64,000 bases of DNA from Bryoerythrophyllum caledonicum (taxonomy: Eukaryota > Streptophyta > Bryopsida > Pottiales > Pottiaceae). The position numbers were made by a program, and so were the translations under genes. Below are positions 3,627-36,896 of the stretch, in pieces (within the stretch, counting starts at the first letter, position 1; the number at the start of each line of letters is the position of its first letter). The notes under the pieces are model-generated. The model made no database searches and had not been told where the DNA came from. It saw nothing but the letters and a program-made list of their open reading frames with translations. The stretch is from NCBI GenBank assembly GCA_963971425.1, contig OZ020526.1:18815173-18879172 (forward strand). Reading direction: 5' to 3'.

Positions 3627-4599
3627 TGCCACATCTCTCTCCTGATGGCGTTCCATACTGTAATTGTAAGACTTCTAATTCTATTGATGAGCTTGTCTCC
3701 GAATTCTTCGATTTTGCTGGAATCTAGAATCGGAGAAATTCATTATCTCAATCCTATAAATTTTTAATGTTCTGAAGAGGTTTTGCTCTTCTGGGACTAT
3801 TTTTTTATATTTGAAGCCCAGCTGATGGGTATGTGAAATTTCAATTGGCATGAAACGATTCTCAACTTTGAAGTTCATGATACTTCAAATCATGTTTTGG
3901 AGTCATGGTATTCTATAGATACCTAAAGATACATTGTGAAGTATATTAACCCCCCTTGGTCATGTTTCTCCAAAACCAAGATATGTGCTGATTTTTCTCT
4001 TTGAACTAACTTTGATGGAGATGCAATGCCTACTTTTAGTATCCAACCTTACGAAATTGAACTCGAACCATGACGTGAACTTTGGGGAGAATTTGCACAA
4101 CATCCAATGGTTGATGGAATATATTATAGAGTTTATAGTTACTCTATATTGGTGATGAAAATTGTGGACTTTGGAGGGTATACTACTTTATCCATCAATA
4201 GATTCTTGCAAGAATTTTTGTGTTTTGAGTAAAAGAGGTTCACATGTGTGTTGGGTGGATAACTTTGCATTGACATATCACATGCGAAGAAAACATTTAT
4301 ACATGATTATTGGTGATTTTTAAAACTTTTGTCTACTTGATTGCATACAAAAATGTTCCAAACTTTTTCAAGTTAAAACAAAAGTTTTGTAATGCCATGA
4401 GAGAGATCAACAAGCACAAAGCAATGAAGAATTTCTTAAAGACAAATTTCAATCAAAATTTAAGACCAAAATCATTTTGCATGTGTATGAAATGCAACAT
4501 AGTATGCGGCATGGTAACCATTGTATTTTAGTGTATTTGATGTATTTTGTGTTTCATTCCTAGCTTTTCCATGAGTTCTATAACTCCAAATCATGATAT
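3627..4599. other. COG6 3' flank, no gene seen
   Basis: AT-rich spacer that must include the COG6 3' UTR and then ends at the transposon insertion point. The longest open frame (4310-4531) shows no similarity to a known family. At 4584-4599 the sequence forms the left arm and centre of a palindrome interrupted by the transposon. Confidence 0.6.
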
Positions 4600-4606
4600 G
4601 ATTTGG
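4600..4606. repeat. Left target-site duplication (GATTTGG)
   Basis: The 7 bases GATTTGG directly precede the left terminal repeat and recur directly after the right one at 14858-14864. This is what target duplication on insertion leaves. Mutator-like elements usually make 8-11 bp duplications, so 7 bp is slightly short; the match cannot be extended on either side. Confidence 0.85.
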
Positions 4607-4920
4607 ACCCGCTCACTAGGTTCAATCCGTGTTCGGGCTGTCAGGCCCTGTTTTGGTCTTCTTTCCGTCTCCCGCGGCCGTCCCCCAAAAGCATCTTTCC
4701 GCCCCCTTGTCCGCGTCTTTTCCTTCCAGCGCCTCTCGCCCTTTCCGAGATCCCTGCCCGATCCATCCCGATAAGCGCCTGCCCGCCCCTGCTATCGGCG
4801 CAGACCCCGAGACCCGATAACACCATATCGGCTAACGGCCTAGGAACGGATCCACGCCCACGTGTACCGGTGGGACCCATCCACCCGCCCTCCGCCGCCG
4901 ATAAGCCAGTATCATCCGGG
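4607..4920 (+). repeat. Left terminal inverted repeat, 314 bp
   Basis: Starts ACCCGCTCACTAGGTTCAAT and ends at CATCCGGG (4920). Its reverse complement is at 14544-14857. I see one mismatch (CTCCGCC here against CTCTGCC in the other arm, near 4890). The arm is GC-rich and has five CGATA/TATCG motifs clustered in its inner half (about 4770-4900). An 80-codon open frame on the minus strand (4641-4880) is copied exactly in the other repeat, but that follows from the repeat and is not evidence for a gene. Confidence 0.95.
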
Positions 4921-5690
4921 GATGGTCACAATCATCCATCGCAGGAGGGTTGCAATCAGCCGGAATCCAAATCGATTGAATCTGAAAGCAATCATTTTTT
5001 GCATAGGGTTTCGATGGAGCTATCGCGGATTGAATGACAGGGCGGTCTCTTGATTTGGTCTAGGCGATGTGCTTTCATGGTAAAGCGTGAGATGGTTTTG
5101 ATAGCTATAGTTCTGTGGTTGGCGGCTGGTAGTCTCGACAGGAGAATTAGAGTCTCATCATTGTCGCCATCAATTTCAAATGTTCCGGCGGCGTTGTTCA
5201 AATGGCGAAGGCTGCTGTTGGCTCGTTTTCTCTCTCATTTGCAAACCCGTTTGTTTGTACTCGCTATTATCGTTTGCGCTGTTCTTTTGCGAGCTCGATC
5301 TCAGAGAATTCCTTGACATCTTCCATCTCCGACGACGCCTTCTGGTAAGCATGCAAACCCTCCCGCTCTCATTCAGTTTGTAAACCTATAGCCTCATATC
5401 GAGTTGTGAAGTGGACGCAGGAAGTTGATAGTTAGGGTTTCTGGAACTCGATATTCTCAGTACTATTTTTTCTGGAATCATACTGAAGTTTATCTTCGAT
5501 TGGAGTACGAAAGGAGATAACGATTGGAATTCCAAGTGCCGCGCTGATAGGAGTACCAAGGGAGATACCGTTTGGAATACTAAAAGGCTTTAACTTCTCG
5601 GTTTTAGTTTAGGGTTTAGGGTTTCTCATGTACCACGTTTCATAATGAGTTTCATGACTGATTTGCGCTGTATGCTGTAGGTCTGCAAAA
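4921..5690 (+). other. Leader region of the transposon's protease gene
   Basis: Internal element DNA between the left terminal repeat and the first ATG of the long plus-strand gene. It probably holds the promoter and 5' UTR. A likely 5' UTR intron ends with the acceptor CTGTAG at about 5680, ten bases before the ATG. Two short near-copies of GGAGTAC-AAGGAGATAACG/CCG lie at about 5503-5570. No additional coding exon is supported. Confidence 0.5.
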
Positions 5691-8600
5691 ATGCCGAGAT
5701 GCAACTGCGTCAGTGAGTTACCGAGAGGGGTGGAGGCTGTTCCCACCCACCCGAAGTACAACGATAGGCTGAAGAGGATAGAGCAAGTTTTCAAGGTGGA
5801 GGGGCATTACTGGCAAGACAGCTGGTCTCCTCTCACGGCCAGGAGAATGATTCTGGCGATGCACGGGCCAGACTCGCAGATTTACAAGACCAGTGAACTG
5901 TCTCCGGAGAAGAAAGCTTTTCACTGTCCGTATTGCAAGGAGGTCGGGCAGAAACATAGGATCAATCTGCACCTGAATCACGCGAAGTGCCCTGGGCGAC
6001 CTAACAGGAAAATGCCTGCTTATCCGAACCTCGACATCAAGAATCAACCTCAATTCATACAGAAGATGGTGGATTCTACAACAGTGGACGAAATCATTGC
6101 TGCTTTCCAACATATCGTCCCACTCGATAGGGCTAGCAGGAAGCCGAGAGGCGGCGGGAAGAGAGCGGCCGGGACTGGATCTCGGGACACGCGCGCAAGA
6201 AAGCGAGGAGCGTCGTCCTCTCGGGCATCGAGAGAAGTCCGATTGGAAGCCGATGACGAGGAGTCGTCATCGGATGACGACGATCAGTACGAGGCGGGCG
6301 AGGATGGCGATAGGTCTGAGGACCGCGAAGATGTCGATGCTAGGCCCATGGACATCGTCGCCTACAGCGTTCCAGCGACATCGGAAAGTGGGCACTTCGT
6401 TTCCGGGAATGTCGCTTCCAGAGCCCCGATAAGCCAGGCGATTGTTACATCAAGTGCTCGTGGTCGGGACATGCACTCGATAAAGCGAGGTGCATCGTCC
6501 TCTCGGGCATCGAGAGTAGTGCATGCACAGGCCCCGTCCGATACGACCACATCGGATGAGGAGGACCAGGACGGGTCGCGAGAGGATAGCGAATCCTCTG
6601 AGGCGCGCGAAGATACCGATGCGCGTCCCAATGAAGTGATCCCGGTCAGGCATCCAGCGACGGCGAAGGGTGGGCAATGCAGCTCCGGGAACGTCGAGAA
6701 GAGGCCTACGATAGGCCAGGATGTTGCAACATCCTCTCGGCGTGCGAGGAGCCCCAAACCGAACTTTACTGCGCGTGCGATGTGTCCCTTTGACAGCATC
6801 ACTGCCCCGAATTTCCATGGAGAAGACGATCCATATTCCGTAGGGAATGCACCGGAAGTGCGCGAACAGTACAAGGTGGTGCGGAGGGACGATGGACCTA
6901 GCGCGACTCTCGCCGATATCTCCGACGAGAGGTTAAGTATCAAACAATACCTCGCGGGGGGCGCTAGGCCGAGGTACAGTAACCCGGACAGAGAAGCCAG
7001 GGCGCGGGAATTGGAGGAAATGCGCATTCGCGAAATAGAGCGCATTCGTCTCGACGTGGACGAAAAGTACGCGGCGTCCATCCAAACCGACATACCTCCA
7101 GTGAGGCGAACGCGAACCCCTTTGTGGATTCTCATGAAGAATGGTTTGCTGTCTGAAGAGGAGCGTCGCAGCATATCGTCGGAGGATCATCTACTTCAGA
7201 TGATGCAGGACGTTGTGGCGCAAGGGCAGTGGCGTTTTACGTCTGCTATCGGGCAAGCGTTCTGCACGCAAGCCATCTCCACCGACGAGCTAAATGAGTG
7301 CAAGCCTATCGTGGAGCTGGCGCAGTTTCCGTGGAGCGAGAAGCTGAGAATTCGGTGGGTTGCTACTGTGAGGGAGACGTGGCTATTTCTTCAACGAGAG
7401 AAGGAGGCGCAAGAATGGGAGGTCTCGGGAAGAGCTAGGGCCGCCAGGATCCAACAAGACCGCGAGGCGGAACTGGTCTCCCGAATTGCCTCCTACGACA
7501 AGGAGCGGTCTGTGGAATGGGAGGCCTTGGTGTGGGACTACAATCTCCTGTTCCACTTCTGCGCCGATAACCCCTTCATTCGCGAGCTCTTGCCGCCCAT
7601 GCCATGGAAACACAACTCCGAAGAGGCGAGAGTGGTGTTATCGATCTTGAAGGCAGCAAGTATCGATCCCATGCGTCCTCCCCGAGAAGCGAGGCTCCTG
7701 AAGTGCTGGTTTATCGCCAACGGTTTCAGTAACCGGTTTGTCCCCCCTCTATTATCGTCATCTATTTTACCAGCTATTTTAGGGATTCAATGCTATCGGA
7801 TTCTCGTTCCAGTTCAGAGTTTTTTGTCGTTTTAACAACTACTGGATTGGAGGTATCGCTTATGAGTTATCGGCTGACTGTTGTTTGAATTGCAGTGGAA
7901 CAAATATGTGCCATCCCCACGCGCGAATGACGCCGCTGATGGTTGATAGGAACTCCGATAACGCACATTCGCCTTGGGATGGCGCATTATTTCTGTACGA
8001 GAAGCTAGGGAGGTTTCTCTTCGGGCATGTGGAGTACGCGGATGAAGATCCGGAGGTGGTAGAACTCCATCAGATGCTCGTTAACGAAGCGCGTGAATGC
8101 GGCAGAGCTGTAATACAGTTCACCCATCACGTAAGAGCGCGGACAGTCATCGACATGGCCTGTAGACACGAGGTGCAGTTTGAGCTGAGGTGGTGTCAAA
8201 CCGATCTGGCGTCGTACATGCCATGGGAGCTTCTCGAAGAGCAATGCCTGTTTCGGGAAGACATCGACTTACTATATGTCGGCAGTGGATCGAGTAAGCC
8301 GTCCGCCACATCGTTTACGATCTTCACTTACAATTTTATGCATATCGTGTGTGAGTACTTATGTTTATCCACTGTCACGTGTGTACAGATATGGTAGGTG
8401 GTCACCTTATCGGAGTCCATGACGGGCCCGAGATGCAGGCTTGTCTCACGGCGATAACAAGTTTCTGCCGGAAGCAATGCGCAGCATCGGTGTCACGTAT
8501 TCGATCCGAAGACGTCACGGAGGATTCTTCTCGGAATACTCGAGACATCGAGGGTGCCCAGGCTCTTATCGCCGTCCACGACGGAACTCCGATTGGGCTC

Positions 8601-10894
8601 GGAGAGCGACAAGAACCTGCTCAAAGAAGGGAGCACGTAGAGAAGGTCTCTCTCCCGCCGCATATCGTGGTGGAGGACGTCGGCGATAAGAAAGATGAGA
8701 GTCCTTCAGAACCTGCATCTCGGGAGGGGGAGGAGACGATGGACGTCGACTCCGAGAGGGAGGAGATCTCGGGTAACGAAGGAGATGCCAGTATCCCCGA
8801 CCCCGGGTTCGATGACGTCCCGAATTTAAGCCGTGGGAGCGAGGAGCGAGAAGCCGATGTCACACCTGACAACGCCGAGGTCAGCCAGGAAGCTGAGAAC
8901 CTAGCGGACCGGCGCACTACATCTGCAGGCGGTGCTACTGCCGAAGGCGATATGTCAGGCGTCGCTTCTTACATGGTCCCGGTTCCTATCGAAGCCGAGA
9001 AGGAATGTCGGGCTAAAGAAAACAACGATCCGCCTATCGTTGAGAGGGATTCGCAGCCATCGGAGCCTAGGCTGTCTGAAGAAGAAGCGGCAATGCCTTC
9101 GGAGCCTACCGTACCTGAAGAAGGAGCGGCAACGCCATCGGAGCCTGTTGTGGCGGACGACGGGGACGAAACGCCTCTCGGATGGACCCAGGTAATGGCT
9201 GACCTCACGCTTGGAGATGGGTTGCTAAACCTACACGGGAACCGAACCCCCGAGGACTTACGATTATTACACGGGGTAAGAACACAACGTAGTCGTGAAG
9301 GTTGCCGAGGGAATTAATAGACAAAACCATCCTTTTAACCTATCGCGATATCCGCCTATGTATGCTATGTTGTTTGCTTCCCCTCGAATCCGTGTCATAG
9401 AGACTACGCCCCTAACGACTATAGATTCTTGGTTTTTGTAGGACGGGTTATCGGAACAATGGAGAGAGCGAACTCTAGCGCAAGTCATCGAGGGCGTGAT
9501 GGAGAAGAGGGAGTCCATTGTGTATCATCCAGGACTTCTGGAATCGCTCGCGAAACGCGTCCCTGATAACCCACCCCCGTATGAGTGTATGTTGCCCGAG
9601 AACCGCCACATCTGCACGTCTCGGATGCCCGACTGGAATAGAGAGCCCACTCTATGCTTCGAGGCTGCAAGTCACTCTCCGGAGCTGGTCGAGCAAAGTT
9701 TGGGTCTTATCGTCGAGCTTCTGAAGCACAGGTTTAGTTTTTTTACTCTTATCGTCCGATACTTTCCGATTTGCTTCCTCAAGTATAGTTCATGTTCGAT
9801 ATCTTGTGAACGATAACCCCTTAATACGATATGACTTGTACTGTACAAATGCACGTATCGTTTGCTAACTCACAGTGTCATTTCTGTCCCGCAGACCCCC
9901 TGGCAAGAAACTCGATGACATTGTAGACGATATGCTCGTCTTCGGCCCGGACAAGAGGAAAGCTGTGACCATATCGCTCAATCGTGCCGACTGGGGCTGC
10001 ATTCTCCAGGACCGGCGAGAGCTCGACGGCTCTCTTATGGACTTCCTACTCCGGCATATCGTATACCGCGCTGACCCGGAGGTACGACGGCACTACGCGT
10101 TGACTCACAACTGGATGTCCAATTGCATGCAGTCGAAAATCGATGACGCAAGCACATGGGACGAAGTCGTGTATTACATCTATCGTACCGTGCGTACCGT
10201 ATCTCGACTCGAGGACACACTAGTGGTGCCCTACCAGAACATGGGTCACTGGAGTATATTTGTCGTGGAGGACTCCCAGACGATACAATTCGACACGTTG
10301 AATATGCACCGGGACGAGCGAGCGGGCAACTTCGCGTTTGTGTTGCACATGGCGTGGGCGATGGCGAGGGGTGTTTCGCCAAAGTTGGCCATGTGGAGGA
10401 AGTGGCAAGGACGGAAGGTGAAGAGGTTGCCGATTCCAAAGCAAGCGTTGTCGTGGGAGTGCGGTTACGTGTCGTGCTTAGCATTCTGGCAGTACCTCGT
10501 CATACGTGGGAGTAGTCCAGTGTCCAATCCGGATTTGCTGAAGAACCACAAATGGCAGGACTGGGCGGGGTCAAAAGCGCGACTGTGGTTAGTTCAGGCG
10601 TTCTATCTCGAGCTTATTTCCCCGCCCAATGGGTTTTCTAAGCCTACAGTTGATGTCTGGAGTCCTGTACAGGCATATGTTCTCGCCAGCGAGAACATGG
10701 AGGGCGATGATGAAACCATGGAGATGAGCCCGGAAACAGGAAGGAGGAATACGACGAGGACTGCTATCGACTTGGGTATCGAGAAGACGATAGCATTGCA
10801 GCTCAAGGGATGTCGTGTGAGGCAGCCTCTCGGCGAAGCACCTAGGGAAGGGGTGAAGAAGCCGGGCACGAAGAGAAAGCCGAAGAAGAAGTAG
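5691..10894 (+). CDS. Transposon-encoded zinc-finger and Ulp1-like (C48) protease protein
   Basis: Five exons join in phase: 5691-7735, 7896-8293, 8389-9275, 9442-9731, 9895-10894, giving 1539 aa. Residues 79-100 form a CxxC...HxxH..C cluster (HCPYCKEVGQK...LNHAKC) that looks like a single C2H2/CCHC zinc finger. Residues about 170-360 are acidic and Ser-rich and include a 94-codon tandem duplication. A second acidic, proline-rich stretch follows, with three PSEP repeats near 9050-9150. The C-terminus is a Ulp1/SENP-type cysteine protease fold: His1325 in MGHWSIFVV, Asp1340 in FDTLN, Gln1390 in PKQ and Cys1396 in SWECGYVSC, with the family Q-x5-C spacing. The last residues are Lys-rich (KRKPKKK), a possible nuclear signal. 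Such proteases cleave SUMO or similar modifiers in their family; the substrate here is unknown. It faces the transposase gene and is probably nuclear. The middle region matches nothing I know. Confidence 0.85.
6198..6763 (+). repeat. 94-codon tandem duplication inside the protease gene
   Basis: Two units about 282 bp apart, the first beginning at 6201 and the second at 6483. Both start KRGASSSRASR, continue through an acidic Asp/Glu/Ser stretch to DARP, and end with PAT...G...SSGNV and a TSS.R segment. The period is an exact multiple of three, so frame is kept. The core start is nearly identical at the DNA level and the rest has diverged. Confidence 0.85.
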
Positions 10895-11303
10895 GCTCAG
10901 AGCTTCTTCTTCTTGTATTTTATATGTACGATAGGTTAGGATCAGACATATCGTCCGACGATAGGTGTGTATACATTCATTTTCCGATCAAATACCGGAC
11001 GAGTCTGTACTGTATATTCCATAATGTACAAGAATGTGTTGGTAATGAAATGATCGCGAAGATGTCTTTCTATCCTGGCTATCGTTTATCTATGCATTAT
11101 AATGTGTATTTGTCCTACCAATCCCGTTTGTATCCTGTCGAGGACTATACCTCCCGCGATAAGAACTATAGGAGCGAGAGCAGTATACCTCTTCCGATAA
11201 GATGAACATATGTAGGAGAGGACGATGGACCGCAATATGGCAACCCGATAACGCGGTGGCGTTATCGGATCTCTAAATTTAGAATATAGACTACTGGCTA
11301 TGC
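10895..11303. other. Spacer between the two convergent transposon genes
   Basis: About 410 bp between the stop codons of the protease gene and the transposase gene. It must hold both 3' ends. It contains about nine CGATA/TATCG motifs, including close pairs at about 10926-10970. No coding sequence is supported. Confidence 0.65.
11245..11268. promoter_or_regulatory. Perfect palindrome with a CGATA motif in each arm
   Basis: Arms CCGATAACGC and GCGTTATCGG match over 10 bp around a GGTG loop. It lies 36 bp beyond the transposase stop codon, between the convergent genes. It could be a protein-binding dyad or a 3'-end hairpin. The sequence shows the symmetry; any function is inference. Confidence 0.6.
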
Positions 11304-14300
11304 TTACTGCGTAAGGTTCTCGGGAGCACGAGCCGAGGAATGTCGGTAACCTTGCGAATCTAAGAAATCGCGCAGTCTTTGAAGCCTCATTCCGAGCCCG
11401 TCTCGGTTACAAGGGAGGGAATGAGCAATCTGCTGCAGTGGATGAAGCATGCCGGCATCAATATCTGCCTCGATTCTGGACAATGTCGCATCCATACTTC
11501 GTAACCCGGCGTCCAAGTGCCGCGCCAGTATCGGTTGCCGATACGCCTTATCGAGGAGCTTCAAAATGAGTTGGTGCATGCGGTCGAAGTCATCTGACCA
11601 CACACTTCCCAGTTCTCGTGTTGGCGATGTGTCGAAACATACATCTCGGTCACATGATCTTGAAGGCAAGATATCGTTGGCGTCGATATCGAGAACAGGC
11701 CGTAGGATTTCCGATCTCTGGTCGTTGGAGAGCAGGAGATTTGTCATACCTCCTTGGGCCGTGCCGCGTAGAGAACCGAGGTATCGGGCAATCTTGCCCG
11801 AGGCGAGGTCGGGTCTCGTTAACTCGAGTACTTTAACTTGATGCTTCCAGATGTTCCCTTTCTGGGAATACACACACTCGCAGACGGCCCACTCTGTGCA
11901 GGGATTGTATACAGCGTACGCAATGTGACCTCGTTTCGAAGACCTAACCAAAGCCGGTCCTCCAATATACATTGGCAATACGACGTTTTCGTTTGGGATC
12001 GAATTGGCTTGAATAATGGAGTTTACCATAATCTGCCTCAACTTCTTGTTCTTCACGAACCCGTTCTGTTTACTCCAGTCGGTGTAGTCATATTTCTCAA
12101 TGACATTCCCAGTGAGCTCATAGATAAGCCAGTCCATCCGTCGGCCGATAAGCTTCCTTTTCGACTGTCGCAAGACGGATTTCATGTTCGAATGGAATGA
12201 CTCTATCGCAGCTGTGGTATCCTGGCCCGCATGAGGGATCTTTCTATCTCCCACTACCCACATATGGATTTTCGGCATCCATTCCTTGTCAAAATACTTC
12301 CAGTACTCCTTTGCATCTGGAATGCGTGCCTTTGCCTCCATATAGACGTGTTGAACCCACTCTAACAACGTCCAGATCCTCGTAGGAGGTCCTCTCGTAG
12401 CAGGGTCATCGCAATCACTTGGTGTCTCAGACATGTACATAAGATCCCCTACAGTACGCAATGCAGCAGCTCTCGTCTCCATGTCTTTCAACTTCGCACA
12501 AGCGTTCTTTTGCCAGGCTCGACGCACGTGCCACAAGCATAGGAACAGAAACGACCGAGGCCAAACTTCCCTGCGATAAGTAAAAACACGATAACCCATC
12601 AGATAACCCGGCACGATACGAGAAAGCCGGAACGCCGATATGTCGTATCATCCCGACCTGAACCTGACGTACAAAAGGCAAGATATGAAACCAGAGGGGG
12701 TATTCTGTGAGTCTCTATAGTTTCTTACCGGAGTGAGTTGATCTCGTTATCGGCGTCGTCGAGTACGAATGCTGTAGGTCTCCATCTTGGGTTGATTTGC
12801 TCTAGCTTCTCTTTTAGAGCGTGCATCCAAGGCACTAGATCACTTTGTTTTGATCTCGCGGTGATTATAAAGGCGACGGGCACGCCATTCCTCCAGTCGT
12901 CGAACACCATCATCGTGAATAGAGGGTACTGTAAACAATAGGAAATATTAGTACTAGAAGATACGAATCGATGTAGCAGAAGTTCGTAGATAGGATGAGT
13001 AGACACATTCAGAGCGAATCGTAAAGGCGCATACCTTCTTGTTGTTTGTAGCGAAGGTCCCGTCTATCGCAATAATGCTATCGTGCCCATAGTTGAGCAT
13101 CATCCGCAGCTGAAAGGGGGTCTGAATCCCTATCACGAAGGGCACGTTGTCAGAGTTCAAGACCCCTTCTATCTTAGTCCCCGGATCCTGGTAGTAGAAT
13201 ACCATCTCTCGATTCTCTCGTACCCACATTCTAACACTCTCGGCATCATTATGGTGCTTCTGGTAGAGTTCTTGCGCACGGACGCCACAAATGTTCCGAA
13301 TATCCTCCATGCTCAGGAAACAATCCCGAGAAGGTGTGAGCGTGCCCTCATCGCGTCCTTTGAGTATCAACCTCTGATGCTTTAGTTTAATCGATTCCAT
13401 AGGAACGAGCTCGTCGTACTGCCGTAGAACCCAATCTCTAACCTCCTCCGATATGCACTTTCGGAATCTGAGTCTCCCCCTTGTGATGTTTACCTTATCG
13501 TGAACGATAATGCCCTCTCTATCAACGTGATCTTTGCAGAAGTACCCTATCTCGGCGATAGATGGTAGAAAGTAGTACCTCTTTACATAGAATCTACATT
13601 GGCAGCCCACCTTCATAGACCCTCCCTCCTTCGCGTCAGTAGCACGAGGGCCTTTCTGACCACGTCCTGAGTATATCTGTTTTCCTTTCCGATTGTATCG
13701 TCGTGCTGTGGGTGCCATATCGGGAGTGATATCGTCGATCTTGTCTCTATTGTCTTGGGGACCGTATTGACAACGCCATCTGCAACGACAGCCGAGAACT
13801 TTTAGTGATGGATACAGTGCGCAGTAGACGATATGACAGTAACCCTCGTAACAGCAATGACCATCTTACCGTTGAAGCTCGATGGGGCAGTTCCAGCGAT
13901 AGTGGGTCTTATCTCCCACGTTCGTGTGGTCGAATTTATCCCGCACGAATGTGGTCTCGACGTCCTTTCGGCCTGATTGCTCACCGTTCACGAAATCCAT
14001 TACTCTATCCCATGGAATGTAGGCGATAAGCTTCGATTGCTTTCCCTCACCGGGGTCATGATCAGGAAGACCATGGAGGTCATCAACAGCGGACTTCGTC
14101 TCCCTCTCGGCCTCAATATTCCACCTCAGATCTTTCCAAGTTAGCAAACCAGGTGGAGGCTTATGTAATGCATCACGCATCCTAAGAACCTTGTGACCAT
14201 GCTTCATGAGGTACCGAGCGTGCGGGCCTTCTCGGATAGCTGTATCTAGATCTTGCACACCCTCCTCACGCACACCAGCAGGCTTCTTTCGACCCTGCCG

Positions 14301-14411
14301 CCTCCATCCTCTCGCTGCCACCCCGTTATCGGCTCCACTCCGAACTGGTACCTCACTTGCATCCACACCTGGGAAGACCGGCGGCAGGAGATTCAGATCC
14401 AGGAACTCCAT
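11304..14411 (-). CDS. Mutator-like (MULE) DDE transposase with N-terminal EAR motif
   Basis: Four exons on the minus strand join in phase: 14411-13870, 13779-13035, 12928-12729, 12570-11304, giving 917 aa. Residues 5-10 read DLNLLP, a match to the plant EAR motif DLNxxP. Residues about 184-270 carry Cys and His spaced like the FAR1/GCM-type zinc finger of MULE transposases (GCQCRFYVKRY...YFCKDH). The RNase-H-like catalytic core follows: Asp420 in AIDGTFATN, Asp486/487 in FVLDDADNE, the family CLWHVRRAWQK block at 507-517, and Glu619 in AIESFHSNMK. A SWIM-like segment follows (CEC at 726-728, KHQ at 738-740) in which the usual Cys before KH is Trp737. The protein should bind the terminal repeats and cut and join DNA in the nucleus. 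Transcription probably starts in or near the right terminal repeat. The frame is intact. Confidence 0.9.
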
Positions 14412-14543
14412 TCCCGCTGCCTATCGGTGACACTCTACTCTCCCGCGAGCACAACAAATGGCGCCGCAATGAACACGGGCTGGGGAGACGTTGCAAGCCG
14501 AGTCCAACATAAATCATCTACATCATATCTGCTCCTCGGATTG

Positions 14544-14857
14544 CCCGGATGATACTGGCTTATCGGCGGCAGAGGGCGGGTGGATGGGTCCCACCGGTAC
14601 ACGTGGGCGTGGATCCGTTCCTAGGCCGTTAGCCGATATGGTGTTATCGGGTCTCGGGGTCTGCGCCGATAGCAGGGGCGGGCAGGCGCTTATCGGGATG
14701 GATCGGGCAGGGATCTCGGAAAGGGCGAGAGGCGCTGGAAGGAAAAGACGCGGACAAGGGGGCGGAAAGATGCTTTTGGGGGACGGCCGCGGGAGACGGA
14801 AAGAAGACCAAAACAGGGCCTGACAGCCCGAACACGGATTGAACCTAGTGAGCGGGT
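14544..14857 (-). repeat. Right terminal inverted repeat, 314 bp
   Basis: Mirror of 4607-4920, ending GAACCTAGTGAGCGGGT at 14857 and followed by the second GATTTGG. The near identity of the two arms implies a recent insertion. Five CGATA/TATCG motifs lie in the inner half (about 14560-14700). The arm ends about 130 bp upstream of the transposase start codon, so it probably carries the transposase promoter. Confidence 0.95.
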
Positions 14858-14864
14858 GATTTGG
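14858..14864. repeat. Right target-site duplication (GATTTGG)
   Basis: Exact copy of 4600-4606. Removing the element and one copy restores an uninterrupted palindrome at the insertion site (arms 4584-4594 and 4598-4606 plus 14865-14866). Confidence 0.85.
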
Positions 14865-15712
14865 AGAGTGTTCCTGTAATGTATGCGCAAATCTGAATTT
14901 CAAATTTCACAACCTAATTCCTCATGGATTTCATGCAAATTGAGTCTTAAACACCTTCATAGTCGCATTTTGGGTTTCGTGGGCACTAAAGGGTTGAATT
15001 CGTTCAACTACAATGCATACATACAAATATAATGCCACATATTAGACTTTTCTTGAAATTCTTTTTTGAATAGGAAAGATCATAGGAAATATCCCATGAA
15101 GATGCCCCCTTGCAAAAGTCAACCACAAATATGGTGAAAATATTGCATGGACCCGCATTGAATCTTCTTTCCTACAAATTTGTTGGATTGCGGCTCATTG
15201 CATTCGTCGGAAGCATGCAGATCCAAACAATTTTCTGCAGTTCACAGCTCACGTAGAATTGAACTATTGGTAGAGCTATTTGCAGATTACTTTAAAAGTG
15301 ACCACCTATGGACTTGTTGTCATTAAAGGGTTAAATATGAAGAAATAACAATGAACTATTGGTAGAGCTATTCACAAATTACTTTAAAAGTGACCACCTA
15401 TGGGGCTCGTCATCCTTAATCTATTAACACCTAAGTGGACCATGAGAGCCTAGGAGAATCTACGAGCATAGTAGATTAAACAGAACACAATGGATACATT
15501 TCAGCACAGAATGGGTACATTTCAGTGCAACCCACTTCACGGAAATCACTACACTTTGTTAATGCCTTCATAGATTGGAGATTGGAGAGATCCGTTGAAA
15601 AGCTAACAAGGAGCTCCAAATCCATTCAGAGTACGCAAGAGACAATGGCCAATTGTGGAAAGAATTACAAGAGCAAAAGTACCAGAATCAACCGTGCCAA
15701 GCCCTCGTAGGC
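14865..15712. other. AT-rich spacer with a short tandem duplication
   Basis: No gene is seen. It includes two copies of a segment beginning GAACTATTGGTAGAGCTATT at 15261 and 15353 (period 92 bp), both running to GTGACCACCTATGG. A related sequence recurs near 31990-32035, so this is a dispersed repeat that has duplicated locally. Confidence 0.6.
15261..15402. repeat. Tandem duplication, 92-bp period, two copies
   Basis: About 50 bp in each copy is strongly conserved (GAACTATTGG to CACCTATGG). The spacer between copies contains ATTAAAGGGTTAAA, a sequence typical of the ends of the TTAA-flanked elements elsewhere in this window. Confidence 0.7.
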
Positions 15713-16148: not shown

Positions 16149-17286
16149 TACAGTACCTTCACATAAGTATACGTATGCTTATGCTATAGTATAGTACTTT
16201 TTGCTTATGTACATTTCTACACTACAGTGCTGCCAACTTTGACACCCTCCTGAGTGCCGAAAAGTTGTCAATGTAAAATGAAATTTTTGGCACAAGATCA
16301 TTTCTTTGTTGTAAACATGTGTGCCAAATTTCAAGTCCAGAAGATGAATACCAAAAAAGATATTCAAAATTTGCCAACATATGTAGCTATGAGAAAAGTT
16401 TTATAGCTGCCAACTTTGACACACTCCCAAGGATTGAATTTTTTGTTTTTGCCCATGAAATTTTTGACATGAGACTATCTTTGTCATGAACACATGTGTG
16501 CTAAATTTGAAGGCCATAATATCTACATATCAAAAGATTATTGAGATCTACCAACATTTATAATTGTGAGAAACATTTCATTGCTGCCAACCTTGACACC
16601 CTCCCAAGGATTGAATTTTTTATTTTTTCCCTAAGATTTTAGACATGAGACCACCTCTATGTTGATTATAGGTGTGCTTAATTTCAAGTCCAATAGATCC
16701 ACAAAAGAAAAGAAACAAATCTAAATCTACCAACATGTGTAGTTGTGAAAAACAATCAAGAAAACCATTTCACTATTGCCAACTTTGGCATCCTCCCTAG
16801 GTCTAAAAAGTTCTTAATTGACATATGAAATTTTTGATACAAGATCACTTTATGTTGATAACATGTGTGCCAAAATTCAAGGCAAAAAGATGAATACAAA
16901 TAACCATCTTCAAAATCTATCAACATATGTAGCTATGAGAAACAATTTTGAATATCCTTTTTTTAATTCATCATGTGGCCTTGGAATTTGGCACACTTGC
17001 TATAAACATAGAGATGATCTTGTGCCAAAAATTTCACAATAGACTAAAAAAAAAAAATCAACCCTAGGAAGGGTGTCACGGTTACCAACTTTGAATGGCT
17101 CGCAACTACAAATCTTAGTAGACTTGAGATTTAGCACACATGTTGACAACATAGAAACGATCTTGTGACAAAATTTTATGGCAAATTGACAATTTTTCAG
17201 CCCTCAGAAGGGTGTCAAAGTTGGCAGCAGTGTAGTGTGGAAACGTACACAAGGAAAAAGTCTGTAAACTTATGTGAGGGTACTGT
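16149..17286. mobile_element. Foldback-like element with 177-bp internal subrepeats
   Basis: Terminal inverted repeats ACAGTACCTTCACATAAGTA (16150) and ACTTATGTGAGGGTACTGT (ending 17286), with a second inner inverted pair CACTACAGTGCTGCCAACTT (16222) and AAGTTGGCAGCAGTGTAGTG (about 17218-17237). Between them, direct subrepeats start at 16229, 16406, 16583 and 16775 with GCTGCCAACTTTGACAC or a variant, spaced 177, 177 and 192 bp. The same subrepeat is inverted at about 17080-17215. Architecture fits a foldback-type non-autonomous element. No clear target duplication was found. A 27-bp stretch starting GTGGAAACGTACAC is duplicated at 17237 and 17284 at the right edge. Confidence 0.7.
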
Positions 17287-30683: not shown

Positions 30684-31600
30684 TTAACCCTTAAACCCGT
30701 GGAGGACCATTTTCCCTCGGAAGGACGATTTTGATTTTGGGCAGGTTCCTAATATTTGAGAAAAAAAATCTTTTCCTTTTTAACTTTCATGCTAGATTGT
30801 CCTTGATGAGAGCTTCGTGGAGGTATTTTTTGTTTTATTTTTTGGATTCATGGTTTGAAAGTTAGTACCGCTCAACGTTAGAGATAGGGACTCCGGGCAG
30901 CTCCAAAAATTTTGCTAGAAGTTTTACATTGTCATCGAGATTTTTTATACATATATTACCTTCTTTGAAAGTGTCAAAAAAAATAATTCTTGTCTTCAGT
31001 GTCAAACAAAAAACATTTTAACCCAAGTCAAACATTTTCACACATTGTCAAGCAAGGTACCAAAAAAACTTCTTTGTTTCCACATAAAACTTAGAGATCT
31101 TCATGTTTTTCACTTTTTATGTTTTTGACAACAATTTGTGGAGAAAACCTTCTTATGACCGTTTGGATTATCATTTTTGAACAAACTAAGTTCCAAAAAA
31201 AAAACGTAAATTGACAATTTTTGAACCTCTACTCCTTGCACATTTATTTTGAGTATGTTACACCCTTTCTCCACCTCTAAAAATTGGTGAATAAGGAGCT
31301 AATATCATGTTTGACACAATGTTAAAGGATTTAGACTTTGTGTAGTGCAAAAAATTGACACCAAGTGAAGCCTAAGTGTGTTGATTCACTCATCGCAGGG
31401 AAGAAAATGAACGAGTTTCTTGACTTCAAATGCTATAAACCTCATATCCGTGTTGTGAATTGTAGCCAAAAAAATGTGGTAATTTTTATAGAAGTATATT
31501 TTAAGATTTGATGGTTAAAAGTCCAAAATTTTACTTCAAATTTTGATTTTCTTGCTACTTTTTGATAGTGGTAGTTTTGGAGTGTTTCTTGAGGAAATAT
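30684..31600. mobile_element. TTAA-type non-autonomous element, about 0.9-1.1 kb, inverted copy
   Basis: Starts TTAACCCTTAAACCCGTGGAGGACC. It matches the element at 35963-36896 in the opposite orientation over most of its length: the reverse complement of that element shows the same order of blocks, such as GGTTTGAAAGTTAGTACC, AACATTTTCACACATTG and AATTGACAATTTTTGAACC. The right end is worn; TTAACCCTTTAAGGACA at about 31755 may belong to this copy or a neighbour. Non-coding. Confidence 0.65.
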
Positions 31601-32721
31601 GTCTTGGGCCGTCGGAGGTTGAGGTCAAGCAACCTGATTCTGGTCGTCTCTGAAAATTTTGGAAGATAGCCAACATAAAGAATCCGGGGTCAAAATATTT
31701 TTGTTGGCTACATTCCAAAATTTCTAAGGACAACCAGAATCGGGTCGCTCAGCCTTAACCCTTTAAGGACAACACCTACGATCGGGCTTGGGAGATGCCA
31801 CGGGTGGGTAAATTTCAGTGCCGCTCATCTCTACATCATCTACACTGTAGGTATATTTCATGGCAGCTCGTCAATACAAGCATCACTATAGTTTGTCCAT
31901 TAGACTCCGGTGCACATTCTCACTGCATTTGTTGAAAGCGCATGGATTCAAGGAACTTAAATTAGGCCGTGGTCCAAACAAAGATGAAGCACCAATCCAC
32001 CAATTTGCAAATTACTCCAAAAGTGACCACCTATGGGCCTCTCAACATTACAAGGTTAAAGGGCTAAGGCCTAATGATCATTTATGGTTGTTAGGAATCG
32101 TTAACCCTTGTCATAGGCGCTAAAAGCAACTTCCTTGGAATTTTGAACTCCAACTCAATGGCAAAGTAGGATGAGCATCTACCAAGACTAATGCCACCGA
32201 AATCGATGAAGGCACAACAAACAACAATGATTTCCATGAAGTGGGGTTGCAATAAAATGTATCCAATATGTAAATGAGTTATGCATAATCTATTACGCTC
32301 GTAGATTCTTCTAAGCCTTGTGAACTCGTTAGGCCTTAAAGGATTAAGCTTTTCTCTTCCTCCCAAGTGATACTAAAGTCTCACCTCTTCTGCCCAATTT
32401 TTAAATTTATAAAGTACCATTTTTCCAATTCAAAGATTGCATCACAATTTCTTAACCTTTATGCATTTCAAAGTGGTTGCACATCCTGCTTTTAGAATGG
32501 TGGATTGTCACTTCTTTACCAATATACAAAACTGGTGGAAGAGTGAAACATTTCCCTTTTATTTAATAAATCTGAAAGATTGTAATTTTCACTTCAATGA
32601 TGTACCTCTGTTAACTCTTTAGCACCGAGCTATTCAAAATAGGGCGGATTCAAGTGTATATCCAGGTATAGCTTGTTGTGTGTCAGTTAGATGCACTTTT
32701 TTCTTTGTCGCATTATGATGG
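31601..32721. other. Intergenic DNA with repeat fragments
   Basis: Contains the dispersed segment TTACTCCAAAAGTGACCACCTATGG (about 32010) that is duplicated at 15261-15402, and scattered TTAAAGG/CCTTTAA ends. No gene is seen. Confidence 0.45.
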
Positions 32722-32947
32722 CACTACGCTAAAATTGAGAATTAGCGTAACCACACTAATTAATTTGTAAATGCTATAAGTTTTTACTTTAGATGAAGGT
32801 TTTTATTATGAGCACAACTATTGATACTATTCAACGAGGGGAATCATTGTAAACATCGTTGGTAAAAACATTGATCACAAATATAAACTTATTAACATCT
32901 TAGATCATTTACTGTGCTTAACACTAATTCTCAATTTTAGTGTAGTA
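32722..32947. mobile_element. Small CACTA-like inverted-repeat element
   Basis: Left end CACTACGCTAAAATTGAGAA and right end TTCTCAATTTTAGTGTAGTA pair over about 23 bp with one mismatch. The terminal CACTA fits CACTA-type ends, but a target duplication is not clear and the interior is non-coding. Confidence 0.6.
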
Positions 32948-33684
32948 AATACTCTTTAAATGGCACAAATGAATCTTCAGTCCATAAAGGCATTAGCAAA
33001 CTACAATGATCTTCATGAAGTAGGGTTGTCCTGAAATGTATGCACTGCGTAGATGACGTTCTACCTAATCTATTATACTTGTAGATTCTCCGAGGCTCTC
33101 ATGGTCCACGTCGTCATTAAAGGATTAAGCAATCCATTTGTGAAGGATTTTGCAACTACACTCACAAATCATACCAAACTAATTGAATTACATATACATA
33201 AATTTACTTACATTAAATATCACCAATTAGCTCTAATTTAATTTGATAACATGCTAAATAATATTAAAATTGACACCTATCAAATCAAATTAGTTAAATC
33301 TAATTCTAGAAAAAATTAATGCAAACGAGAAAAATATAAAACGGCTATAAGGTGGAGGATTTATTTTTTTGTGTAAAACTTGTTGTAATCTCCTATAAAT
33401 GATCATATATCCCATTTCTTAGTACCTATTCCAATTTTCCTCTACTTGACTATAGATTGATTCATTATCAAAATGGTGGCAAATGATTGGTAGATAATAT
33501 GAGTACAAGAATGATGTGATGTACTAACAACTACACAATGTCATGTCTACGAGCCTGGGTCACTTCAATAATTCACCCAAAAAATCTAAATATGTTATTT
33601 TCCAAATGAAAAAAAATAAGAACTGAGCTTCTCACTGTGGGTGTTTTTGTTTGATGGAGATTGCTATAGAGTAAATTACGTGGC

Positions 33685-33905
33685 TTAACCCTTAAACATC
33701 AAAAGGTCACAATATTCTACATGAATGGTGTTGTATCTGAACATGATAAGATTTGAATATTGAAATGACTTCCAAATGGAAGATGTTAGTTGAAGAATCT
33801 TCAATCCAAAGGTGTAAGTCTTGCTAAACTTCAATACATTTTTGTATTCTATAGAGTAAATTACGTGATTGTATACACAGTTCCCGACTGACGTGTGAGG
33901 CTTAA
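33685..33905. mobile_element. TTAA-flanked miniature element, copy 2
   Basis: Begins TTAACCCTTAAACATC and ends near TGAGGCTTAA. It matches copy 1 (29399-29632) along its length; the right inverted repeat has decayed. Non-coding. Confidence 0.7.
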
Positions 33906-33924
33906 ACTAAACTTATTTAACCCT

Positions 33925-34661
33925 TTAACCCTTAGAGGACAAAGCTGCAATGACCGTGGCATCAATCCCAATTTTCATTCTACAATGTGCTCTAATTCTT
34001 CATCAAACACAAGCGGAAGTATTTTTATTTCATTTTTTAGAGATGACACCATATGTTTTGTTCATGTCACAAACAACACAAGATTTTTTTTATGAAAATT
34101 CAATTTATTGTGATTTTCTAAAGAAAAATCAAAGAATATTCATAACATATACAAATTTTGCGTAAAAAAGATGATAATTTCACCGAAGGTGTACATTATT
34201 GTGCTGCAACTTGTAGTGTAGATGAAACTTCGGTGTTCAGCTAGGTTTAGAAAATTGGTCATCCACGGTAATAGGCCCAAAGTTCAAATTGCAATAACTT
34301 ACTCAATTTTATGTATTTTTGAAAAAAATTAATTGGATTGGAAACTAGATTTCATAAAATTCAATTCATTAGTTGGACTCAATTTCAAAAAAATAATCAT
34401 TTTAATGACTGAAATTCATATTTAAAGCTACAGCTAGAAGTTTCTAAAATACACTACATTGAGTTCCATGTCACAAACATTTTCTTGTTTAGAGAAAAAG
34501 TTACACACTCTATGAAGGGTATCTATAGTGCATGTGGTACATGCAATCATTGACAACACCTTCACAAAAACTTGGATGAAAGTAATGCTCTATCATCAAG
34601 CGGGAACATTTTACATTCTTCCATCGACCAAATTTTGGTCGCCCCGACATTTAAGGGTTAA
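33925..34661. mobile_element. TTAA-flanked element, about 0.74 kb
   Basis: Left end TTAACCCTTAGAGGACA, right end GACATTTAAGGGTTAA, so TTAA borders and CCC/GGG ends as in the other copies. The interior differs from the 0.23-kb and 0.93-kb types and shows no protein. Confidence 0.55.
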
Positions 34662-35962
34662 ACTATCGGAAGCTATGTCCCCTTTAAGACCGGACCTACT
34701 CCAAATACACCCAGGATCGACCCTATTTGGGCTCTCCTGACCTCGGAGGGTTCACTTATTTACCATTTCCGGGTGTGAGGAGGAGCATGGTTGCCAAGGA
34801 TCTCGGAACTTGATTGGGCCAGGTCTTTGGTGGTGATTGGATTCCTCGAGCAGTGGACACGATCTGAAAGTTCAAATTGCAGCAGTGAGCACTGCGGCAG
34901 CCAAGCCAATGACAAAAAGTCAAGCAATGGAAGGGTGGCAAATTGGCAATGGCAGAGGAACAGGGATCCCCACACTTTGTTGCCATCCAATTCCCATGAT
35001 GCCTGACATGGAACATGACTTCCGCTCGTTGGCCAGTCAACAACCATACGGTAACCACAAGCCTGAATGTGCCCGCCTGTTCACACTCTCATGTCCCACC
35101 ACGACCTTCACAAACTCATGGACCTCCATGAATGAAGCGCCCCCATAACCAACAAAAACCCATAGCCAACGCCTATAAAATTGGGGTATGTCCAACCCTC
35201 TTCCGTCCCATTACCACCAACTCAGTTCCAAATGGAGGTTTGCTATTAGTCAAGACCCTTAGTTTTGGTTGTTGGTTATGGGGGGTACCTACTGCTGGTC
35301 ACCCACTACACATGGCTGCACACTTTGAAAATTCATAACTAATTCAGTTCTGATCGAAAAAATATGAAATCACTTGGGTTGGAATTGTAATTCTACTCGC
35401 TATTGCTGAAAAATCATAGTATAGTTATCTCCTCTCTCCATATATAAACATTCCTTAAGTTGTTGGTTTCAGGGGGCTTACCTTAAAGGGGTTTTCACAC
35501 TCTAACCAAGCATTGAGGGGCCGTCAAATTCCACCAATAAAATTGTGAGAATGGTCAAAGTTTGGCCTCACACTACATTAAACATGATATATAGTACAAC
35601 ATATACAAAATATGAACCTGTGGGCTAATTGTGAACTAGGCAATTAGTGTAGTGAGAAGAACTCTGCACTAAATGCCAACTACTACACTATTTGTCAATT
35701 CTAATAAAGATTGCAAAATGAGCTATTTTACCTGTGGACGTGTAGTGTATCAAAAGTAGAAGAAGATTTGGTGGACATTTTGAGTGTCATAAGCCAAGAA
35801 GGAATGGGAATGAGGATAGGAAGTCAACGGGGGAGAATGAAGGCTTGGCGGTTGGTAGGCGGCTGATTGGAAGTAACATTAATGACATAGGCGGTTAACA
35901 CTAAACGTCAACTTATTCACAAATAGTGTACTAGGGTGAATACATTATTGGTGCCACTGCAC
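34662..35962. other. Intergenic DNA with a GC-richer island
   Basis: The part at about 34740-35330 is richer in GC than its surroundings and holds overlapping open frames on both strands (70-103 codons), but none is recognisable and they shadow one another. Short inverted CACTACA/TGTAGTG ends occur at about 35570-35660. No gene is called. Confidence 0.4.
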
Positions 35963-36896
35963 TTAACCCCTAAAGGACCACGACCACTTTCGCTCTAAAA
36001 CTAGTCCAAAACTGCCACTGCCAAAAAGAGACATGAAAATCACATCTTAAAGTGAATTTTGGATTTTCAACCATAAGATCTTAAAATAGACATCTATATA
36101 AACATTCCACAAAATTTTGGTTGCAATCCACCGCACGGATTGATAGATTTTAGTGTTTGAAGTCAAAACAATGGTTCAAGTTCTTCCCTACGTTGAGTAG
36201 ATCAACAGACTTTGACTTCACTTTGTATCAAATTTTTGCATTGTACAAGGTCTAAAGCCTATACCATTGTCTTAAGCATGATGTTATTTCCCAGCACACC
36301 AATTTTTAGAGGTCAAAAAGGGGTGTAGCATATTCAAAACAAGTGTGCAAGGAGTCGAGGTTCAAAAATTGTCATTTCACGTTTTATTTTTTTGTGAACT
36401 ACGTATGTATTCAAATGATAATCCAAACGGTCAATAAGAAGGTTTGCACCATATATTGTTTTTGAAAAAATAAAAAGTGAAAAATATGAAGATCTCTAGG
36501 TTTTATGTAGAAAAGATGAAGTTTTTTTCCCCCGTTGCCCGACAATGTGTGAAAATGTTTGACTTGGAATATAATGCCTTTTTACACTAAAGACAAATTT
36601 TTTTTTTGATAATTTTCAAAAAAGGAAATATTCTTTATATGTGTGAAAAATCTCAATGTCAATAGAAAATTTTGTCAAAATTTTTGGAGGTGCCCGGTCT
36701 CCCCACTTTTGGCTTTAAGTGGTACTAACTTTCAAATCACAAATCCAAAAAATAAAATAAAAATATGTCCACGAAGCTCTTATCAGAGGCTATCTAGAAT
36801 AAAAATTTCAGAGAAAAAGGTTTTTTTTTCGAATTTTAGGAACGTGCCCAAAATCATAAATCCCCCCGAAGGAGACTCTGGTCCTTTAGGGGTTAA
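35963..36896. mobile_element. TTAA-flanked non-autonomous element, 934 bp, intact ends
   Basis: Left end TTAACCCCTAAAGGACC and right end GGTCCTTTAGGGGTTAA are perfect 17-bp inverted repeats including TTAA at both borders. Reading TTAA as the target duplication, the element proper starts CCCC and ends GGGG. It is related, in inverted orientation, to 30684-31600. No coding sequence. Confidence 0.8.

Follow-up and report, generated by a model that had tools for sequence, protein, structure and literature searches.

A transposon of the moss Bryoerythrophyllum caledonicum raises the question of why one five-letter word, CGATA (TATCG on the other strand), should be scattered through its entire length. 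The element lies within a window of 64,000 nucleotides (contig OZ020526.1 of assembly GCA_963971425.1, positions 18,815,173 to 18,879,172 of the forward strand), which is the whole stretch analysed here and supplies the coordinates below. It is a Mutator-like element (MULE) with two convergent genes, one for an accessory protein (+ strand) and one for a MURA transposase (- strand). This class assignment is based on a 9-bp target duplication, on the MULE transposase domain PF10551 in MURA (51.7 bits, cut-off 27.6) and on the presence of multiple copies with differing duplications; the target duplications of MULEs are 8-11 bp long, mostly 9 bp. An initial annotation had noted the motif, at 4741..14700, in a 10.25-kb transposon, and had proposed that the word may serve a VANC-like self-recognition; the terminal repeats and the target duplication place the borders of the element at 4608-14856. 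We conclude that the CGATA sites are very probably selected DNA binding sites. They would be double-stranded sites gathered across a whole MULE lineage, probably for a protein encoded by the element itself.

The enrichment was confirmed as real and specific to the element. About 97 sites had been estimated initially; we counted 98, from 4769 to 14691 (inside the right terminal repeat), and 93 remained after one terminal repeat was dropped, with a mean spacing of 105 bp. These 93 sites compare with 24.1 expected from dinucleotide shuffles and 15.2 from a background in which the sites were masked. CGATA is the top 5-mer of the element (z of about 14), its enrichment holds against dinucleotide and codon shuffles, and it comes first in six of seven segments of the element and second in the remaining one. 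In six other segments of the window, the best 5-mer reached a z of only 3.2-7.7, the highest value belonging to poly-A. The scarcity reported for the flanks also held: three sites are present in the 4607 bp to the left and none in the first 3 kb to the right, and the whole 49.1-kb right part contains 36 against 46.4 expected. The outer flanks of 30 terminal repeats (44.4 kb) carry 25 sites against 36.9 expected.

The sites had been described as lying in terminal repeats, introns, spacer and coding DNA alike, and every one of these compartments exceeds its first-order expectation. Ten sites (1.2 expected) were found in the terminal repeats, 13 (4.0) in intergenic and untranslated DNA, 13 (1.6) and 5 (1.4) in the introns of the accessory and MURA genes, and 35 (8.8) and 22 (6.2) in their respective coding DNA. 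The accessory-gene introns are the densest compartment, with 22 sites per kb. An origin in codon bias or a protein repeat, already doubted in the initial annotation, is excluded by shuffling synonymous codons within each gene, which gave means of 10.6 and 8.4 and reached the observed 35 and 22 in 0 of 5000 trials each; the density of the introns points the same way. The strands are balanced, both over the element (43/50) and relative to the accessory and MURA genes (21/27 and 14/13), and the sites are therefore not an RNA signal. The extended motif CGATA-N-[G/C] (CGATANS) covers 77 of the 93 sites and 32 of the 36 non-coding ones, and A is absent at the second base after the core in all 36. 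Pairs of sites 9-15 bp apart numbered 15 against 6.4 expected, a value reached by about 5 of 2000 jittered sets in one of six distance bins tried.

The pattern is very unlikely to be an artefact of composition, mutation or repeats that has no role in binding. The element is indeed rich in CpG (observed/expected 1.08 vs 0.67 in the right part), and other words are raised in it: CGAGA about twofold (67 vs 35; 58 of the 67 in coding DNA), CGATG, CTATA and AGATA by 1.4- to 1.8-fold, and TACAGTAC/AGTAC weakly. However, the dinucleotide, masked-background and codon shuffles all fall short of the observed counts, the best words of other segments stay at or below z 7.7, and CGATA recurs in DNA that cannot be aligned with that of a second family. 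There is no tandem array of CGATA in the window family, which excludes tandem expansion there, and the one-mismatch neighbours of CGATA show no overall depletion (229 vs 226.4 expected), which excludes a drain from them. CGAGA is raised especially as CCGAGA[AG]G, with G or C favoured two bases after it (window 4608-14543), and is possibly a weak variant of the motif.

This second, diverged family is present in the same genome. The copy examined is 9,937 bp long, with terminal repeats of about 610 bp (89.5% identical), a 9-bp duplication (GTAAGATCA) and a two-gene layout identical to that of the window element. Compared in pieces, the MURA proteins of the two families are 68-72% identical and the accessory proteins 30-44%; their DNA could be aligned only in the exons of the transposase gene, in a short piece of the terminus and in a single 28-bp word. 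In the diverged copy, too, CGATA ranks first among the 5-mers (66 vs 15.4), CGATAA occurring 52 times against 4.1 expected, and the examination of a related element suggested with the initial annotation thus favoured its proposal. The accessory-gene half without the array described below has 35 CGATA sites against 8.5 expected, and six coding pieces combined have 28 against 11.7, with a maximum of 22 in 2000 shuffles. In the alignable DNA (2,226 columns, mostly transposase), 18 window sites and 10 diverged sites are found, of which 7 coincide. The base directly after the core is A in 40 of 54 diverged sites outside the array vs 33 of 93 window sites (Fisher P 7e-6). In the diverged intron that matches accessory intron 1, the 10-bp unit GTCCCTTATC is repeated in tandem about 11 times, and this array includes nine TATCG; it is present with small differences in a second diverged copy (L068, 1.75 kb, 95.8% identical). 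The CGATA core is common to the two examined families, and the extension and layout are family-specific, as those of a co-evolving binding code would be.

These features also bear on the possibility that the reader is a factor of the host, such as a transcription factor for CGATAA-like words; the sites would then serve the element as enhancers or keep its chromatin open. Fly BEAF-32 provides the precedent: it binds clusters of CGATA in which spacing and orientation follow no clear rule, and mutation of two sites in a dual-core raised H3K9me3 about 3.8-fold (PMC5021357, PMC2605929). The sites of the element are likewise clustered: triplets within 200 bp number 56 in it and 1 in the 49-kb right part. 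In addition to the core word and the irregular clusters, BEAF-32/DREF limits H3K9me3 and contacts DNA through a single Cys/His finger, of the BED type, features to which the proposed reader may be likened. However, BEAF-32 is an insect host protein, Pfam finds no BED finger here, no named plant factor emerged, and the window outside the element is unenriched. Family-specific readers fit better than one host factor because the extension differs between the two families. A host factor is thus a rather improbable reader, and BEAF-32 is regarded as a working analogue, not a relative.

The likeliest reader would be the 1539-aa accessory protein, which consists of an N-terminal Cys/His finger (CxxC...H...H..C), an acidic middle and a C-terminal Ulp1-like domain. 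Its gene model is a predicted frame, supported by the exon 5 relatives P0002 and P0003. Residues H118, D133, Q183 and C189 of exon 5, candidates for the catalytic residues, stand in the right order, are invariant across three relatives and are kept, together with the finger pattern, in the diverged family. Two of the three relatives match the C48 family PF02902 weakly. A protein search with the C-terminal region in full-length form returned no relative, P0002 and P0003 coming from exon 5 alone, and sequence searches of PDB gave no Ulp1 match and nothing informative. In the 282-bp duplication of the gene, one site (6427/6709) is common to both copies, 6308 is confined to copy 1, and 6478 and 6539 to copy 2. 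The sites of this small sample show turnover, as expected if density counts more than place; drift is also compatible.

Three 39-bp repeats lie in accessory exon 3 (window 9056-9172), within the acidic region that also holds the 282-bp duplication, and in the diverged family an array of 27-bp repeats stands upstream of the Ulp1-like exon (L064 4411-4671). VANC proteins, too, are reported to have variable regions with tandem repeats (PMC5735166).

It is also conceivable that the sites are read by MURA, which would use them for recruitment or holding in transposition, for avoiding self-insertion, or for anti-silencing of its own. We consider this unlikely, but MURA stays a serious candidate because a review lists maize MURA, together with VANC6, VANC21 and Spm TnpA, among element proteins with demethylation activity (PMC10706983). 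MURA is moreover the better conserved of the two proteins between the families, in line with the conserved core, and each terminal repeat of the window family holds five sites. On the other hand, the terminal repeats of the diverged family, long as they are, hold just 1 and 2 sites, so that the motif is no end-recognition signal in that family, and a role as terminal recognition signal is excluded. The greatest density, in addition, is in the introns of the accessory gene. The MURA relative P0001 runs uninterrupted across the positions of introns 1 and 2 and stops at that of intron 3.

With the accessory protein as reader, dense binding would mark the element's own copies, and the bound protein, if it worked as VANC does, would take off silencing marks or keep them away locally; SUMO-modified silencing proteins might be targets of its protease-like domain. 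We infer binding, reader and outcome alike, and the full mechanism, in which the Ulp1-like accessory protein reads the sites and counters silencing, could as well be wrong as right.

Anti-silencing by an element's own sequence-specific protein has been described for VANDAL elements, with motifs in non-coding arrays. VANC21 binds YAGTATTAY in VANDAL21, mainly in non-coding DNA and in dense arrays of one orientation, and related families use other motifs (PMC5735166); the loss of methylation spreads from the VANC-bound motif regions (PMC10398659). The element studied here resembles VANDAL21 and VANDAL6 in being a MULE that carries a second gene in addition to that of the transposase and in its dense short motif that is scarce outside. 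As among VANDALs, the related families differ in motif form, and a non-coding tandem array exists, although here in the diverged family only. The motifs themselves are different (CGATANS or CGATAAS here vs YAGTATTAY or AGTTGTMC), and the terminal repeats are long (313 and about 610 bp), whereas those of VANDALs are absent or short and degenerate. The sites of Spm TnpA are subterminal, and we know of no dispersal of a motif through the whole element for TnpA or MURA. Spm TnpA and the MURA of MuDR are like the proposed reader in being element-encoded and, as listed in the review cited above, have the demethylation activity that it might have. Some members of the VANDAL group do have terminal inverted repeats (PMC6446971).

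Some VANC genes carry an Ulp1 domain; these are the KIU genes, which recognise motifs in related elements (PMC13317346, a 2026 review). Compared by description, the KIU genes of the Kaonashi MULEs share with the present gene the position of accessory gene in a MULE and an Ulp1-like domain. However, Kaonashi elements are described as MULEs without terminal inverted repeats, the domain found here is below the Pfam cut-off, and dispersal of the motif through coding DNA is not mentioned in the excerpted KIU description (PMC13317346).

The copies of the window family allow the proposal to be examined on a recent time scale. Matches to the terminal repeat were found at at least 40 places (best 40 of 144 candidates scored), all 99-100% identical over the whole repeat. 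A search with P0003 (best 125 of 350 candidates scored) gave at least 71 window-family and at least 54 diverged-family places, assigned by score, one weaker place (L065) being checked as window family. Seventeen copies were retrieved, of which six (C6a, C878, C10b, C4b, C7a and C7b) were excluded for lack of one exact terminal string; with their flanks, these six stretches carry 97, 100, 98, 103, 100 and 44 sites. The alignment comprised 12 copies, namely the window copy and 11 others of 7.0-11.0 kb. The 11 others differ from the majority by 0.3-1.1% and hold 66 to 101 sites each, so that the abundance seen in the window extends to other copies, as the initial annotation had asked. An exact 9-bp duplication of its own flanks 6 of them, the duplication is offset by one base in 3 and does not match in 1, and the left flank of the eleventh lies outside the sequence compared.

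Among the 12 copies, 481 distinct differences were counted, of which 286 are C-to-T or G-to-A changes and 117 of these are CpG transitions. CpG decay is the usual sign of methylation. CGATA sites were hit by 30 variants, where the rate of the other CGNNN words predicts 26.3 and that of CG followed by three A/T 20.7, and a test for selective retention of sites among young copies was thus negative. Losses of CGATA (30 vs 19.6 under random placement) were more frequent and gains (2 vs 5.7) fewer than expected. In recent copies the motif decays like the rest of the sequence or a little more rapidly, and no selection is visible within the young family. The idea in the initial annotation that the retained CpG reflects escape from methylation fails because the copies gain C-to-T changes, including those at CpG, and CGATA is not protected. 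Its other suggestion, that the element is young, suffices to explain the retained CpG.

These results weigh against the proposal, as do several others. The CpG decay gives no support to a lasting hypomethylation of all the copies. The window family departs from VANDAL21 in that its sites are dispersed, lie in both orientations and in coding DNA, and form no array. For the diverged family, the analysis covered a single copy in full (L064 together with the adjoining L066 and L067). Taken singly, three of its six coding pieces do not reach significance and one lacks CGATA altogether; 3 sites occur in the 857 bp of its right flank and 0 in the 1407 bp of the other. Even at E values up to 1, the whole accessory protein has no match in Pfam, its finger region scores below the cut-off for all Pfam finger families, and its Ulp1-like domain reaches 13.1-13.2 bits against PF02902, under the gathering cut-off of 20.7. 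The decay in young copies says nothing on how the active lineage gained its sites. The VANC-like self-recognition first proposed is favoured by the element specificity, the controls, the recurrence in the diverged family, the array and the Ulp1-like protein, and is weakened by the CpG decay, the coding sites and the missing array in the window family.

A broader and tentative proposal is that the sites form an identity code across the entire transposon, including its coding DNA, with a fixed CGATA core and a family-specific extension; sister MULE families would recognise their own copies by site density, and a zinc-finger/Ulp1-like reader would strip silencing from them. If this were true, codon choice along the full length of the element would bear the mark of selection for the code. 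The initial annotation considered such a system with a different motif to be new. This has to be narrowed, since Ulp1-bearing VANC genes have been reported (PMC13317346); the dispersal through coding DNA and the kept core with changing flanks are apparently new. Among the literature listings searched on dispersed transposon motifs, on CGATA in plant elements and on moss systems, no matching description was found. Two families that share one core word, dispersed in one and also arrayed in an intron in the other, provide a natural series for the origin of arrays, for reader-target co-evolution and for the role of the Ulp1-like domain. The numerous genomic places of both families make the idea directly testable. 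The coordinates of the features are given in Table 1.

Table 1. Features of the MULE and of its two genes, in window coordinates.
Feature	Position	Strand	Description
Target-site duplication TGATTTGGA, left copy	4599..4607	+	9 bp; identical to 14857-14865, read from sequence
MULE transposon	4608..14856	n/a	10,249 bp; delimited by terminal repeats and target duplication; 98 CGATA/TATCG sites
Left terminal inverted repeat	4608..4920	+	313 bp; 5 CGATA/TATCG sites; 1 mismatch in 313 to right repeat (BLAST)
Accessory gene	5691..10894	+	1539 aa; exons 5691-7735, 7896-8293, 8389-9275, 9442-9731, 9895-10894; predicted open spliced frame; 35 coding and 13 intron sites
Cys/His finger (CPYC ... H ... HAKC)	5919..5988	+	Read from translation; kept in diverged family
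282-bp duplication in accessory gene	6173..6745	+	From alignment
Intron 1 of accessory gene	7736..7895	+	4 sites; diverged-family counterpart carries 10-bp motif array
Exon 5, Ulp1-like domain	9895..10894	+	Candidate catalytic His, Asp, Gln, Cys
Spacer separating both genes	10895..11303	n/a	8 sites
MURA transposase gene	11304..14411	-	917 aa; exons 14411-13870, 13779-13035, 12928-12729, 12570-11304; PF10551; 22 coding and 5 intron sites
Right terminal inverted repeat	14544..14856	-	313 bp; 5 sites
Target-site duplication TGATTTGGA, right copy	14857..14865	+	

Some further observations concern the copies. At least 20 window-family places share an identical score to P0003 (331.2 bits) and possibly represent a very recent subfamily burst. 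A subfamily is marked by an additional segment of about 134 bp, inserted at element position 888 (window 5495) and present in intact and internally deleted copies (L060-L061, L062-L063, L041, L042-L043, L050-L051 and L054-L057). Contigs C5 and C13 have none among the listed 40, 125 and 82 places, and most other low-numbered contigs have some. At C12:13147927-13168791, two opposed terminal repeats stand 20.9 kb apart with two opposed accessory-gene places between them, probably two copies head to head or nested. Among the at least 82 listed transposase places, some may be without a nearby accessory gene. No relative was confirmed in the viral_contigs and genome_contigs searches; in viral_contigs just one sequence matched the terminal end (L001), and it showed no similarity beyond that.

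The host genome comprises 437 Mb in 894 contigs. The element is found some 1 kb beyond the final reading frame of a COG6 gene, and the window also contains genes for a GDSL lipase, an oxysterol-binding protein, a kinase and an acetyl-CoA synthetase, as well as telomere-like TTTAGGG words; this gene content and these words suggest a land plant. A satellite-like block at 16196-17261, AT-rich and CpG-poor, is built of both direct and inverted units, each about 177 bp long. Long imperfect inverted repeats occupy 30827-36763, with arms that are 77-83% complementary in pieces and about 5 kb apart, and are perhaps an old transposon or a source of hairpins.

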